In this document: positions 20,093-25,795 of the stretch, one piece after another
Position numbering within the stretch: position 1 is the first letter of the stretch
How the letters are laid out: every line of letters begins with the position of its first letter
The notes under the pieces: generated by a model
The model's database searches: none
Seen by the model: only the letters and a program-made list of their open reading frames with translations
Told to the model about the DNA's origin: nothing
Translations under genes and position numbers: made by a program
DNA from: Nitrospirota bacterium
GTDB lineage: Bacteria; Nitrospirota; Thermodesulfovibrionia; UBA6902
Length of the DNA: 59,551 nt
Assembly: GCA_016234115.1 (NCBI GenBank)
Contig: JACRHD010000045.1
Span: 1-59,551, forward strand
Direction: 5' to 3'

Positions 20093-21148
20093 ATGAACGA
20101 TACGTTCTTAAAAGCATGCCGTGGAGAAAAAACGGATTACACGCCGATCTGGATAATGCGTCAGGCCGGGAGATATCTGGACCAGTATCAGGCCGTGAGA
20201 AAGAAGGTCGATTTCCTTACACTCTGCAAGACCCCCGAGCTTGCCGCGGAAGTGACCATTCAGCCCATTGATATTCTGAAGGTGGACGCGGCCATCCTGT
20301 TTTCGGACATCCTCATTCCCGTCGAGGCCATGGGAATGAATCTCGAATTTCATGAAAAGAGGGGCCCTGTCATGACCCCGGCCGTTCGTGATGAAGACGG
20401 AGTCAAAAAACTCTCTGTCCCCGACCCTGAAGACAAGATGAAGTTTGTCATGGACACGATACGGCTTTTACGGAAAGAGCTCTCAGGCAGGGTCCCGCTG
20501 ATCGGTTTTTCAGGCGCGCCTTTTACGACCGCTACGTATATGATTGAAGGGGGCACTTCAAAGACCTTTCTCAATACAAAAAGGATGATCTTTCAGGCCC
20601 CTGAATTATACGCTTCCCTGATGGACAAGATAACCGCAACCATCACCGAATACCTGAAGGCGCAGATTAAGGCCGGGGCGCAGGCCGCGCAGTTGTTCGA
20701 TACGTGGGGCGGGATTTTTTCACCGGGTGACTTTAAAGAATATGCGCTGCAGTATGTTAAAAAAATTATTGCAGATTTGAAGAAGTGGATGAAGGATGAA
20801 AAAATCGCTCCCGTCCCGATTATCTATTTTGTCGGCGAGACCGCGGGATTGCTGGAAGAAATCAGGACCTCCGGGGCCGATGTCTACGGCGTCGACTGGA
20901 GGATCAATATCGATGACGCAATCAGAAGGCTCGGCAGCGACGCCGTAGTGCAGGGCAACCTGGACCCCATCGCCATGTTCCTTCCGAAAGATAAAATCGA
21001 GCTCCGCGTAAAAGACATTTTAGGCAGGGCTTCATCTGCGCGAGGGCACATCTTCAACCTCGGCCACGGCGTGCTTCCCGAGACCTCGCCCGACAATGTC
21101 ATAGCGCTGGTCGAGATGGTGCACAGGCTGAGCAGGAAGGACCGTTAA
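20093..21148 (+). CDS. hemE: Uroporphyrinogen decarboxylase
   Basis: A 351-residue cytoplasmic enzyme that decarboxylates uroporphyrinogen III to coproporphyrinogen III. The N-terminal PIWIMRQAGRYLDQYQ is the family signature carrying the catalytic Arg pair, FSDILIPVEAMGM contains the substrate Asp, and GFSGAPFTTATYMIEGG is the second signature. The C-terminal HIFNLGHGVLPETSPDN is also conserved. AGGAGGG lies 6 bases before the ATG. It closes the haem run hemW, AhbD-like, hemE on the plus strand. A GC-rich hairpin follows. Confidence 0.97.
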   Translation: MNDTFLKACRGEKTDYTPIWIMRQAGRYLDQYQAVRKKVDFLTLCKTPELAAEVTIQPIDILKVDAAILFSDILIPVEAMGMNLEFHEKRGPVMTPAVRDEDGVKKLSVPDPEDKMKFVMDTIRLLRKELSGRVPLIGFSGAPFTTATYMIEGGTSKTFLNTKRMIFQAPELYASLMDKITATITEYLKAQIKAGAQAAQLFDTWGGIFSPGDFKEYALQYVKKIIADLKKWMKDEKIAPVPIIYFVGETAGLLEEIRTSGADVYGVDWRINIDDAIRRLGSDAVVQGNLDPIAMFLPKDKIELRVKDILGRASSARGHIFNLGHGVLPETSPDNVIALVEMVHRLSRKDR

Positions 21149-21175: not shown

Positions 21176-21204
21176 TGCTTGACTCTTGACTCTTAACTCT
21201 TGAC

Positions 21205-21482
21205 TCATTGGCACCCACACCCGCCTGCCTGGCCGAACTGCTGCCTGACCTTGAGCTTGTCCATCAAATTAACCACACCGTCTCCGTTTACGTCTCCAGC
21301 CGGCTTGATATGTACGTCCACAATCTCAGAAGATGACAATCCGGAAACATCGGACGTTACTGTCAATTGTACCTGATACGGACACGGATGACTTCATACT
21401 CCAGTCTCCTTTTCCCGTTCTCGGGAGTAATTATTGTGCAGTCGCCCGGACACGGTCAACGGTCACGGATACCGTTTCTTTC
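21205..21482 (-). pseudogene. Decayed tail of a secreted protein with dockerin-like end
   Basis: After the metalloprotease stop codon the minus strand still reads as protein, but in three frames: ETVSVTVDRV, then DCTIITPENGKR, then YQVQLTVTSDVSGLSSSEIV followed by GDVNGDGVVNLMDKLKVRQQ and FGQAGGCGCQ before TGA. The last part has the calcium-loop pattern GDVNGDGVV of a dockerin-type repeat. Stops and shifts between the pieces show it is not translated as one protein. It is not the continuation of the protease, whose last domain is complete. A second copy of the same ending lies at 23705-23948. Confidence 0.6.
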
Positions 21483-23180
21483 CTACAGCACCACATCAAA
21501 CGCATCAATGTCTATGGTCTGTCCCGTGGATGCCGCGTTCTTCGTCCCTGTCACATCTATCACTATCGTGTGAGACCCCGAGGCAAGCCCTGTCTTCTGA
21601 AATACAACCTGCTTGACCCGGTTCGTTGCGCTGTAAAGGTCCACTGTTGTCTGCAATACGCCATCCACATATACCTTTGCGATGCCGAGCTGCCTTGTCT
21701 TTGCCGCCATCCACTTGATACCTGTTCCGCTGAATGTGAATGTCGCCTTTGCCCCTGTCCGGGACGATATCTTAAGCTTGCCGCCGCTGCAGGGTACGCA
21801 GTTGTAGTCGCTCCATCTCCCTGTATATCCCACAGACTCATTCTCCTCATAGTGGGTCTTCTGAACAACTATGTCCTGAGGACCAAAGATGTTATTGCTC
21901 TCATTGGACTCCACAACGTATTGATCGGGGTCCACGAAGGCCCACATCCGGTAAGCGCCTCCTGACGCATAGCTGATCGTGCCGGTGCAATCAGTTGTCG
22001 CGCCCGCGGCAAGGCCTGTCCTGCTGCACCGGAAATCTCCATTTTGCCCCGGCCCCGGCGCAGACGCAAGATTTTTGAAAAAGTCAATATTGAACCCCTC
22101 TGCCGCGGTGTCACCCTGATTTTTCACCGTCACGGTCACATTCACCGTCTGTCCGGGCGCGGGGGTTGCAGGGTTGGCGGCAATTCCGGATACTGTCAGG
22201 TCCGCGCCGGAAATGGGTACGCAGGAAATCAGGGACGGCTTATAGAGCGCGACAGAGGAATCAATGCGTTCCCCCTGGTCCGTTGTAAAGTGGTCCATGC
22301 ATGCGTCATCCGTATAATCCATAAAATTATAAATTGGGTCCGGGCCAGCGGACGAGCATGTGTCCCTGACTGCCGGACATCCGAATGCGGCGGATGCCTC
22401 ATACGGGGTGTCGTTAATGTAGTCTCCCGGGGCCGCGCAGCCGCCCTCGAAGGTATGATAAAGGCCCAGATAATGCCCGGCTTCATGCGTAACTGTGTCT
22501 CCCTCGTTGTAGGGAGATGCGCTGCCTCCCGGAAAAGAAGAGTAAAGCGCCACAACACCGTGCATATAGTTGCCTTCAGGAAAGCTGTTTGGCAGATATG
22601 ACCACCCGAGATTTCCCTGACAATCTGTGCATGTGTAGATATTCAGGGTAACGGCAGGGCTTATCGCAAGGGCCTGCTTGGCGGCTGATTCCGACGCGGA
22701 TGTTCTCATTTGCGACCATACTGTGTTGTTGACCCGTTCTATGCTGTCAAGCACAAAGCGAAAATTAGTCGATGCATACGCATTGTTCAGAACATCGAGC
22801 TGATCATTAACCTGCTGATCCGTCACATCCCCTGTGGTTCCGTCATTATATCTGAGAATATGGAAGACGACAGGGATATCCACTATGCACGGCAGCGTCT
22901 GGATAGTCTGTCTCTTCATAAATTCGCCGATCGCTTTTTGGACCTCCTCTGCCTCTTGCAGCGTTGGAGGCAAGGTGCCGCATCTGTATCCGGCCCCCAT
23001 CTGTCCGTCCTCACGCATGAAACTCGTCATGTTTTCATCCGCGGCAACAAGCGGTCTGCTGTATTCGGAAAGAGGGGAATTCCTCTCGACGGCGTCAATA
23101 TCCGCTGATGATACGGAAGGGCCGGAAAGCAATACTGCTGCAATCAACATAAAAAACGCCACCAACTTTTCCCTGTTCAT
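21483..23180 (-). CDS. Secreted M43 (pappalysin-type) metalloprotease with CARDB domain
   Basis: A 565-residue exported zinc protease. Residues 1-26 form a signal peptide. The metzincin zinc site THEAGHYLGLYHTF near residue 233 supplies HExxHxxGxxH, and YNFMDYTDDACM gives the Met-turn. Several Cys nearby (CSSAGPD, CAAPGD, CVPIS) suggest disulfides. Residues 322-440 form a CARDB-like adhesion domain (LTVSGIAANPATPAPGQTVN). The C-terminal 120 residues (YTGRWSDYNC to DIDAFDVVL) resemble a carbohydrate-binding or jelly-roll module. It should act outside the cell on host or community proteins. GGAGGAAG precedes the ATG. Confidence 0.85.
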   Translation of the reverse strand: MNREKLVAFFMLIAAVLLSGPSVSSADIDAVERNSPLSEYSRPLVAADENMTSFMREDGQMGAGYRCGTLPPTLQEAEEVQKAIGEFMKRQTIQTLPCIVDIPVVFHILRYNDGTTGDVTDQQVNDQLDVLNNAYASTNFRFVLDSIERVNNTVWSQMRTSASESAAKQALAISPAVTLNIYTCTDCQGNLGWSYLPNSFPEGNYMHGVVALYSSFPGGSASPYNEGDTVTHEAGHYLGLYHTFEGGCAAPGDYINDTPYEASAAFGCPAVRDTCSSAGPDPIYNFMDYTDDACMDHFTTDQGERIDSSVALYKPSLISCVPISGADLTVSGIAANPATPAPGQTVNVTVTVKNQGDTAAEGFNIDFFKNLASAPGPGQNGDFRCSRTGLAAGATTDCTGTISYASGGAYRMWAFVDPDQYVVESNESNNIFGPQDIVVQKTHYEENESVGYTGRWSDYNCVPCSGGKLKISSRTGAKATFTFSGTGIKWMAAKTRQLGIAKVYVDGVLQTTVDLYSATNRVKQVVFQKTGLASGSHTIVIDVTGTKNAASTGQTIDIDAFDVVL

Positions 23181-23704
23181 TTTATCTTCCTCCTTTTCGT
23201 TATTTCCGTATTGTCAAATTAACCACAGAGAACACATAGAAAATTATTTTAAGCAGGTTAAATCTCTCTTTATTATTCTCTCCGCTCTGTGCCCTCTGTA
23301 GTTTCAATCTTCCCATCTTTTTCATAACGCTTTTGATATTACCATAATTTCCGGAATCGTCTGCCCATTCAGACGATACACGGAAATAGTATCCGTTATT
23401 GATCGCCCGATGTTAAGGTAAAATTCACATCATCCTGCCCCGAAGCAAAGAAAACCCGGTTATCGGGAATTACAACCTCAAAATACCCTTTCAACCTGCT
23501 GAACAGATACAGCAAGTATACGCCATATGAGATTATGGCAATTTCAAGACCATATCGAAACTGCTTAATTTCATGAAATTCTAAAGAGGAGGCTCTTCTG
23601 AAAACTGTAAAGTTATTAGATAAGAGTAAAACTTTCCGACATCTTCGGTCAGCCCTTATATTGCCATACGCCCCTACTTAACTCTTAACTCATGACTCTG
23701 CCCT
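23181..23704. other. Gene-poor 524-base gap with a repeat and a long stop-free frame
   Basis: A hairpin repeat of ACCACAGAGAACACA / TCTGTGCCCTCTGT words occupies about 23219-23316. On the minus strand the frame ending at 23396 stays open for 94 codons back to about 23677 and ends in GYFEVVIPDNRVFFASGQDD, which looks protein-like. It has no good start or ribosome site and is AT-rich upstream. It may be the 3' remnant of another exported protein or chance. Confidence 0.3.
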
Positions 23705-23948
23705 TTATTGACAGCCGCACCCGCCCGTCTGGCCGAACTGCTGCCTGACCTTGAGCTTGTCCATCAGGTTCACAACGCCGTCACACGTAACGTCGGCCCT
23801 ATTGTCAATGCCGTCGCATATTTCGGCAGCATCAGGGTTAATTGTAGCGTCACCGTCATTTCAATCGAGGTTGTTCTCCACATATCCGGGAAGCGCCGTG
23901 CATTGCTTAATTGTGTTGTCCGGGTTCCATAAGCGTCGGTGTCGGCTC
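23705..23948 (-). pseudogene. MopE-like/dockerin-ended secreted protein, 3' fragment
   Basis: Beginning right after the recJ stop codon the minus strand reads as the end of a repeat protein with the metal-binding motif of MopE-type proteins: DTDAYG, then in another frame PDNTIKQCTALPGYVENNLD, a TGA where Cys is expected, and NDGDATINPDAAEICDGIDN. It finishes with GVVNLMDKLKVRQQFGQ and GGCGCQ. One frameshift, one nonsense codon and the missing 5' part mark it as dead. The last 22 residues are nearly identical to the tail at 21205. Confidence 0.65.
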
Positions 23949-25643
23949 TCACCCGCCCGGCCGCATCGCCTTTAGGCTCAACTGGAGGTTTCTGCTGCCG
24001 TTCCATTCATTGACGGAAGGACTGAAGGCGATATCCACCCTAGAGGCGCTCCCCAGCTTTGCGATATGCCCGGCCATGTTGAATCCGATCGTGTCCATAT
24101 TGATAAGGTCCTGCCTGAGCTGCATCTTGAGATGGTTGCTGCCGACGATCCGGTGGTTCATGATCTCTATATTTCTCGCCCCGAACACGGGTTCCCTGTT
24201 TGAATCGCCGAAGGGCTCGAGGAGGCCCAGCTCTTTCACGAGATTGAAGCTGATATCCGAGAAATTGACTGCCGCGTCTATTTCGAGCACCGGGGTCGTG
24301 TCCTCTTTGGCGAGGCCCCTTTCAACGACGCGGTTCATCTTCTCTTTAAATGCCGGGAGGTTGTCGGCGGTCATTTTCAGTCCCGCCGCCTGTTTATGGC
24401 CCCCGAAGCCGATGAGGAGATCAGAGCACTCGGCGATCGCGTTGTACAGGTGAAACGGCGGAACACCCCTTGCCGATCCCTTTGCGACGGAATCCTTTAC
24501 TGAAAACAGGAACACAGGCCTGAAGAATTTTTCCACAAGCCGCGACGCCACAATCCCTATAACGCCGGGATGCCAGTCGCGCGAGGAAAGCACGATGGCA
24601 TTTTCCGCGTGATGAGGCCCGATCATATCGAGGGCGGACCTGAAGACCTCCCCTTCGATTTTCTGTCTGTTTCTGTTCTGCTCTTCAAGCAGTCCGGCTA
24701 TCCTGACCGCCACCGCGTCATCCTCCGTGAGAAAAAGCTCCACGACCTCTCCGGCGTCATCGAGCCTGCCGGCGGCGTCGATCCTCGGCACCAGAGTGAA
24801 AGAAAGCTGCACCGAGCTCAGGGGCTTTTCAATCGACGCGGCCTTCTTCAGGGCCTTTATTCCCCTCCTGCATGAAACACTGTTGATCTGTTTAAGTCCA
24901 TATGCCGCAAGGACCCTGTTTTCGTCAATGAGTGGAACGGAGTCAGCCACCGTTCCTAACGCGACCAGGTCGAGATACTCATTCAAGTCTGTGTTCTGTG
25001 TCCCGGATCCTGTGTTCCGGAAAAAAGCCTGTACCAATTTAAAGGCAACGCCCACGCCGGCCAGATATTTAAACGGATACGCGGAATCCTTTCTGTGAGG
25101 GTCTACAACCGCGATTGCTTCAGGAAGCCTGTCGGGCGGCTCATGATGGTCCGTAATAATTACGTCCATGCCGAGGGAGCGGGCGTGTGCGACCTCGCTC
25201 CCGGAGCTGATTCCGCAGTCGGCGGTGATGATGAGGTGTGCCCCGCATTCCTTTGCCTTCTGAATGCCCTTATCACTTATGCCGTAGCCTTCCGTAATCC
25301 TGTTGGGGATATGGTAGCGCACCTGCAGATTTAATTTCTTCAGCGCCGCAATCAAAAGGGCCGTTGCCGTTATTCCGTCGGCGTCATAATCGCCGTATAT
25401 GAATACCGTTTCTTTCCTCCGGACCGCTTCCTTCAGCCTTGACACGGCCCTGTCCATATCCGGCATAAGAAACGGGTCATGGAAATTCGCGAGGGAAGGA
25501 GAAAGAAAATTCTTTATCGCATCGGCGTCCCGCAGGCCGCGGTTTACAAGTATCTGCGTCAGCAGCGGAGATATGGACGCCTTATCGGAAAGATATCTCA
25601 GAAATTCGGGATTGGTCCTGTTTACCAGCCAGTTTCGGTGCAT
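23949..25643 (-). CDS. recJ: Single-stranded-DNA exonuclease RecJ
   Basis: A 564-residue 5'-3' ssDNA exonuclease used in recombination and mismatch repair. The DHH phosphoesterase motifs are all present: YGDYDADGITATALL near residue 102, ITADCGIS near 160, VIITDHHEPPD near 180 and VVDPHRKD near 197. The DHHA1 part has GFGGHKQAAGLKM near 415. Length and C-terminal OB-like domain are typical. It lies 155 bases after secF on the same strand, but repeats between them make co-transcription uncertain. Confidence 0.96.
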   Translation of the reverse strand: MHRNWLVNRTNPEFLRYLSDKASISPLLTQILVNRGLRDADAIKNFLSPSLANFHDPFLMPDMDRAVSRLKEAVRRKETVFIYGDYDADGITATALLIAALKKLNLQVRYHIPNRITEGYGISDKGIQKAKECGAHLIITADCGISSGSEVAHARSLGMDVIITDHHEPPDRLPEAIAVVDPHRKDSAYPFKYLAGVGVAFKLVQAFFRNTGSGTQNTDLNEYLDLVALGTVADSVPLIDENRVLAAYGLKQINSVSCRRGIKALKKAASIEKPLSSVQLSFTLVPRIDAAGRLDDAGEVVELFLTEDDAVAVRIAGLLEEQNRNRQKIEGEVFRSALDMIGPHHAENAIVLSSRDWHPGVIGIVASRLVEKFFRPVFLFSVKDSVAKGSARGVPPFHLYNAIAECSDLLIGFGGHKQAAGLKMTADNLPAFKEKMNRVVERGLAKEDTTPVLEIDAAVNFSDISFNLVKELGLLEPFGDSNREPVFGARNIEIMNHRIVGSNHLKMQLRQDLINMDTIGFNMAGHIAKLGSASRVDIAFSPSVNEWNGSRNLQLSLKAMRPGG

Positions 25644-25651
25644 CGGAAGAA

Positions 25652-25795
25652 AGAGTCAAGAGTTTAGAGTTAAGAGTTTAGAAACACTTACTGCTTATAC
25701 CCTTAAGTGGTCATTCCGGCAGTCTTTAAGCCGGAATCCAGTTCTTCATGAAAGCCCTGGATTCCTCCCGATACCCCGGGACGGGAATGATGCCG
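25652..25795. repeat. Two repeats in the secF-recJ gap
   Basis: AGAGTCAAGAGTTTAGAG words (25652-25682; related words at 21180-21207 and 23680-23702) are followed by a diverged double-hairpin element with TTCCGGC / GCCGGAA and a second, weaker stem (25706-25795). Confidence 0.7.

Follow-up and report, generated by a model that had tools for sequence, protein, structure and literature searches.

The near-identical ends of two gene fragments in a 59,551-nucleotide contig of a Nitrospirota bacterium (the window, meaning here this whole stretch of DNA) represent the final portion of a module resembling type I dockerins, and this module is probably the species' own docking tag on exported proteins. 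The two copies in the window are interpreted as defunct remains of a system that tags proteins with non-cellulosomal dockerins, and no tagged protein is made from them.

Dockerin relics in the window

Both copies lie on the minus strand. Copy 1 occupies an open frame of 62 codons (21208-21393) with the end AGDVNGDGVVNLMDKLKVRQQFGQAGGCGCQ; it begins with the remnant end of a PKD-like domain (21301-21393), a domain that precedes the dockerin in intact copies, and continues into a relic tail (21208-21300) in which repeat 1 is fused to the end of repeat 2, with the terminus GGCGCQ and the stop codon at 21205-21207. Copy 2 occupies an open frame of 51 codons (23708-23860) with the end RADVTCDGVVNLMDKLKVRQQFGQTGGCGCQ; here a MopE motif (23810-23860; PF11617, 30.9 bits), preceded by an in-frame stop, is joined directly to the second dockerin repeat (23708-23809), the only one present, again with the terminus GGCGCQ and with its stop at 23705-23707. 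The near-identical stretch shared by the fragments is about 30 residues long (90% over 29 residues, E 3.1e-13 with copy 1 as query against the whole genome), and this E value excludes chance as the source of the likeness. An earlier reading of the window from its sequence only had described matching C-terminal ends behind differing upstream parts, a description that holds in both respects.

DNA alignment indicates that both relics are missing part of the double repeat, and each copy has one calcium loop. Positions 21220-21396 align with residues 55-113 of the 150-aa module at an 80% match with one TGA inside; copy 1 would have arisen when the stretch separating the two repeats was lost, and copy 2 when everything between the MopE motif and repeat 2 was lost. 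Copy 1 scores 23.1 bits with PF00404 as an isolated 31-aa segment and 20.9 bits in its 62-aa frame (cut-off 22.9), and copy 2 taken in frame has no dockerin match in Pfam. The sequence-only reading had taken the region for two decayed secreted proteins, which does not hold for the 565-aa ORF upstream of copy 1 (21483-23180, minus strand); this ORF is intact and has its own stop before the relic, so that the tail is now unfused, and it encodes a hydrophobic N-terminus, an M43 (pappalysin-type) metallopeptidase and CARDB. The neighbouring genes are, judged by their sequence, hemE-like (20093-21148), recJ-like (23949-25643), and secF- and secD-like.

The dockerin-like calcium loop suggested for the fragments belongs to a real dockerin repeat. 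The double repeat (64 aa) matches PF00404 (Dockerin_1) at 39.2 bits against the cut-off of 22.9, and three full host proteins score 31.3-35 bits, also above it. The two loops of the intact tail, DVNGDGVVNLMD and DATCDGVVNLMD, both fit D-x-x-x-D-G-x-[VI]-N-x-x-D and are of the DxxxDGVVNLMD type, with Thr and not Asn or Asp at position 3 of loop 2. The best solved structure for the double repeat is a cellulosomal dockerin chain, 2y3n_B (E 3e-12), and the list of 26 structure matches (E up to 1) consists mostly of named cellulosomal or dockerin proteins.

Intact copies, selection and lineage-specific tails

A genome-wide search for the tail returned 14 matching rows, corresponding to seven distinct copies: four in long intact ORFs, one frame-shifted and the two relics in the window. 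The case of only two copies derived from one duplicated gene therefore does not hold, and the intact genes anticipated elsewhere in the genome were found on different exported proteins. Intact copies end a 1206-aa frame on contig C60, a 1136-aa frame on C65, a 263-aa frame on C40, and a gene that the assembly cuts in two, with one part at the end of C56 (L019) and the other at the start of C60 (L015); an exact 141-base overlap inside the tail copy joins these two contigs. The tail repeats break the assembly, and the breaks fall within copies. The frame-shifted copy lies on C6, where the upstream ORF is out of frame.

In the four intact copies the module runs from a PKD-like domain through the two loops to GGC[GA]CQ at the very end; the PKD match lies below the Pfam cut-off of 23.5, at 18.5 and 17.1 bits in two proteins, and is unlisted in a third. 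The hosts differ; one of them, an HExxH protein, combines MopE, CARDB and C-type lectin domains. The four intact proteins and the M43 protein all have a hydrophobic N-terminal segment, with a maximum 15-residue hydropathy of 2.07-2.89, and from their hydropathy these segments are read as signal peptides. As the dockerin repeat is real and the intact tails are found on different exported proteins, an attachment tag is the best reading of the shared end, and this half of the earlier suggestion of a sorting or attachment tag is retained.

Substitution patterns indicate that the tail peptide is under purifying selection despite its differing hosts. The Nei-Gojobori method was applied to 149 codons of the whole module in the four intact copies, and, with the C6 copy included, to the 64 codons of the dockerin. 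Over the whole module dS is 0.27-0.78, dN 0.015-0.097 and w 0.05-0.17 (6 pairs), and for the dockerin alone dS is 0.28-0.99 and dN 0.014-0.063 (10 pairs); the tail peptides are 88-97% identical within the genome. Purifying selection follows from the peptide having been kept while synonymous sites diverged, and the dS and dN values also mean that the copies are not fresh duplicates.

Close relatives of the tail are scarce. In a panel of 61 genomes, consisting of this one and 60 relatives, the double repeat has matches in 5 (E up to 0.01), and the CxCQ end occurs elsewhere only in the same-genus genome G007 (TCDGVVNVLDKLKVRQQLGRTDSCVCQ, at a contig edge), where a search for further parts of the module found none. 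A set of 395 genomes from the phylum contains 8 with a match (E up to 1e-4), and outside this genome the top one is 42% identical; G007 has no row among these matches and presumably lies outside that draw. The named genomes searched gave two weak relatives at 33% identity (Ca. Bathycorpusculum and a Bacteroidales MAG) and no close kin. An origin of the tail from a mobile element or virus was rejected, as the plasmids searched held no tail relative and none of 10 pattern matches in viral contigs was confirmed as one.

Dockerin_1 matches of any kind are present in 15 of the 61 genomes (E up to 0.01; over the cut-off in 8), and dockerin-like ends of other kinds, ..PGPGVGD and ..TSAPWE among them, are found in other genomes. 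Tails were compared in a set of 23 from 14 genomes, which omits partial, internal and doubtful tails of G020, G024, G025, G031 and G049 and one G003 protein. The tails of this genome are 88-97% identical to each other (10 pairs), versus 18-26% to those of four same-genus genomes (30 pairs, mean 22.8). All within-genome pairs average 82.6% (17 pairs, with a minimum of 14 in G023), and between-genome pairs average 34.3% (236 pairs, with a maximum of 92 between G003 and G006). A one-to-one match of tail class and genome does not hold strictly: G003 and G006 share a class, and the two tails of G023 fall in different ones.

A further comparison comes from the joined C56/C60 locus and its counterpart in G003. 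An 880-aa MopE protein at this locus is 77% identical to a 915-aa G003 protein. The tagged protein encoded next and the protein that comes after the 915-aa one in G003 share 72% identity over residues 2-103 of the tagged protein, beyond which their tails are unrelated. The tail of the G003 orthologue is common to the next two G003 genes; with the Pfam dockerin model, two of these three G003 proteins have tails at 14.8 and 15.4 bits, under the cut-off, and the third has no match. This stretch of G003 (L084 2332-13320) encodes a PEP-CTERM protein, a MopE-rich protein and then three tandem proteins sharing the ..PGPGVGD dockerin-like end. A G024 homologue has a third tail class, open at the contig end, and a G045 homologue of the tagged N-terminal domain has no dockerin end. 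The syntenic orthologue thus shares the N-terminus but has a dockerin-like end unrelated to the tail of this genome, which makes this tail look like a docking tag particular to the lineage, private to the species or its nearest kin. The same tail across hosts, together with an unrelated tail on a syntenic orthologue, offers a clean handle on the function of non-cellulosomal dockerins.

The search for a receptor

In the proposed mechanism, a tagged protein would be exported by its signal-peptide-like N-terminus, followed by the PKD-like spacer, the two EF-hand-like calcium loops and the short Cys-x-Cys-Gln end. After export the two loops would bind calcium and take up the dockerin fold, which the terminal cysteines may brace through a disulphide to the Cys of loop 2 or to each other. 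The tag could then plug into an extracellular receptor of the cohesin type, thereby gathering unrelated exported proteins on one receptor, presumably at the cell surface. Spread and loss of the module would have occurred by recombination between near-identical copies and within its own repeat, leaving the window copies as relics.

A dockerin would be expected to pair with a cohesin rather than with a protease. The membrane processing partner suggested by the sequence-only reading is not borne out: the tail has neither a hydrophobic helix nor a basic end, and the two exosortases over the cut-off in this genome go with separate PEP-CTERM proteins (17 matches, 9 of them over the cut-off). The best cohesin match in the genome, which is 97% complete, reaches 18.9 bits against a cut-off of 24.1 and falls on a PEP-CTERM protein of C6 (53.7-54.3 kb, minus strand). 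A profile of 8 cohesin or cohesin-like domains from relatives found nothing when the genome was searched; in a direct scan of 19 proteins the same C6 protein was the best with this profile, a weak match of 15.1 bits.

Across the panel, cohesins over the cut-off are present in 6 of 61 genomes, and a dockerin match is found in 5 of these 6 versus 10 of the 55 others (Fisher one-sided p 0.0026, not corrected for kinship). G038 and G023 have neighbouring dockerin and cohesin genes, and G024 has both in a single ORF. Such pairs, directly next to each other or fused and including dockerin-like and cohesin-like members, are located at L101 8423-11479 (G038), L099 7449-11312 (G023), L094 3-1865 (G024) and L090 7429-9218 (G026); the cohesin-like protein of G026 also bears thrombospondin type 1 repeats.

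PEP-CTERM genes lie near tagged genes in G000, G003, G025 and G030, a proximity that may be fortuitous. The 206-aa PEP-CTERM gene behind the intact pair on C60 was considered as a cohesin and rejected: it has no Pfam cohesin match, and together with its G003 counterpart it gives 1.9% in hhalign. A mixed set of 5 PEP-CTERM proteins aligns with the cohesin set (hhalign 89.6%, E 1.9e-6), and in the PDB, searched to E 10, a cohesin is the single match (E 0.24); this alignment is unusable for the C60 gene, since it is probably driven by the members that have a cohesin score (C6, G025 and G030). Large, exported-looking repeat proteins are also encoded beside tagged genes (L018 1350-3140, L092 14685-16736 and L015 4669-8001), two of which start with INYQGYLTD or IDYQGYLTD, and the third, cut at a contig end, has SVSGG-type repeats; these are possibly partners or co-expressed surface proteins.

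As the tags differ between the two species, the receptor should have been exchanged along with them, and the search is narrowed to binders of the CxCQ tail that are not the same in both species. A more specific but doubtful proposal is a surface display system of two steps, in which the C6 PEP-CTERM protein has a far-diverged cohesin-like domain, is placed in the envelope by an exosortase and receives the species-specific, disulphide-braced tags of unrelated exported proteins; whole sets of tags would be exchanged between related species, and receptor and tags would form a private code. A literature search joining dockerin, cohesin and PEP-CTERM found no paper among the titles and abstract openings covered.

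Alternative readings and known dockerins

The tail could be a processed C-terminal sorting signal of the MYXO-CTERM, GlyGly-CTERM or PEP-CTERM type, cut at GGCGC by a membrane protease, although this is highly improbable. Such sorting tags end in a hydrophobic helix and, after it, basic residues. GGCGC does resemble the MYXO-CTERM Cys motif, and two exosortases are available in the genome. For MYXO-CTERM, a short motif with an invariant Cys is described in PMC11980579. However, the last 30 residues of the tails reach a maximum 15-residue hydropathy of 0.25-0.47 versus 1.90-2.48 in two PEP-CTERM ends of the same genome, the last 10 residues hold 0-1 K/R versus 4-5 in those ends, the protein stops directly after CQ, and the NCBIfam matches for the tail include no C-terminal sorting model. 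With no membrane helix and no basic end, the tail is not a sortase, exosortase or MYXO-CTERM signal; the sorting-signal reading was thus rejected, and with it the other half of the earlier suggestion.

It is also unlikely that the tail has no tagging role and is one gene's 3' end spreading as repetitive DNA through recombination, helped by heptamer arrays. Arrays of AGAGT(C/T)A stand directly 3' of the stop in 5 of the 7 copies, namely those of C60, C40, the split gene and both relics (21178-21205 behind copy 1, and a short array at 23677-23690 behind copy 2, both minus strand), which favors spreading, as do the breaks of the assembly within copies and the large share of relics and the frame-shifted copy (3 of 7). 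The C65 and C6 copies are without an array, however, and arrays occur away from tails, even within ORFs, so they do not define a spreading unit; they seem to be a repeat that is expanding in this genome. Further arrays are seen in the window at 25651-25664 and on L017 at 9494, 10794 and 11862, and those inside C65 ORFs translate as RVKSQELRVK. The low w of the intact copies at dS up to 0.78, or up to 0.99 for the dockerin with C6, likewise speaks against spreading DNA. A partnerless role for the double repeat, as a calcium-dependent structural cap or EF-hand clasp that stabilizes exported proteins, is quite unlikely; calcium loops and terminal cysteines would suit such a clasp, and it agrees with the absence of a cohesin above the cut-off in the genome search, but a mere cap needs neither the 88-97% identity across hosts nor the complete difference between same-genus syntenic orthologues, and in relatives dockerins co-occur with and adjoin cohesins. 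The docking tag remains the preferred reading.

Dockerins outside cellulosomes are already known, Peer et al. 2009 reportedly being the main survey, and the variant described here is a CxCQ-ended, genome-specific tail. A cellulosome would combine a scaffoldin of several cohesins with cellulases that bear dockerins; the tail does not present as part of one, as no cohesin over the cut-off was found in the genome and no glycoside hydrolase domain in the three hosts scanned. The Flexitail family (NCBIfam NF041520) shows a partial likeness over model positions 38-105, where the tail scores 25.5 bits, below the curated 40-bit cut-off. The nearest known class is that of non-cellulosomal type I dockerins (PF00404), which, like the tail, have two EF-hand-like calcium loops at the C-terminus of different exported proteins; the tail differs from known type I dockerins in its CxCQ end, the Cys in loop 2, the fixed PKD-like spacer of intact copies, the absence of glycoside hydrolase domains from the two long hosts that were scanned, and the lack of a cohesin above the cut-off. 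The function of dockerins outside cellulosomes is not known according to PMC5244752, which is, together with PMC9012536 (ANME archaea), PMC8542988 (Ca. Stygibacter) and PMC2930009 (Ruminococcus), among the reports of dockerins on exported non-cellulases. The cellulosome-like complexes of Ca. Stygibacter peptidases (PMC8542988) and of ANME archaea (PMC9012536) hold cohesin proteins, some of them multi-cohesin, whereas a single weak PEP-CTERM candidate was found here; in both complexes, as in the present genome, the proteins with C-terminal dockerins are exported non-cellulases.
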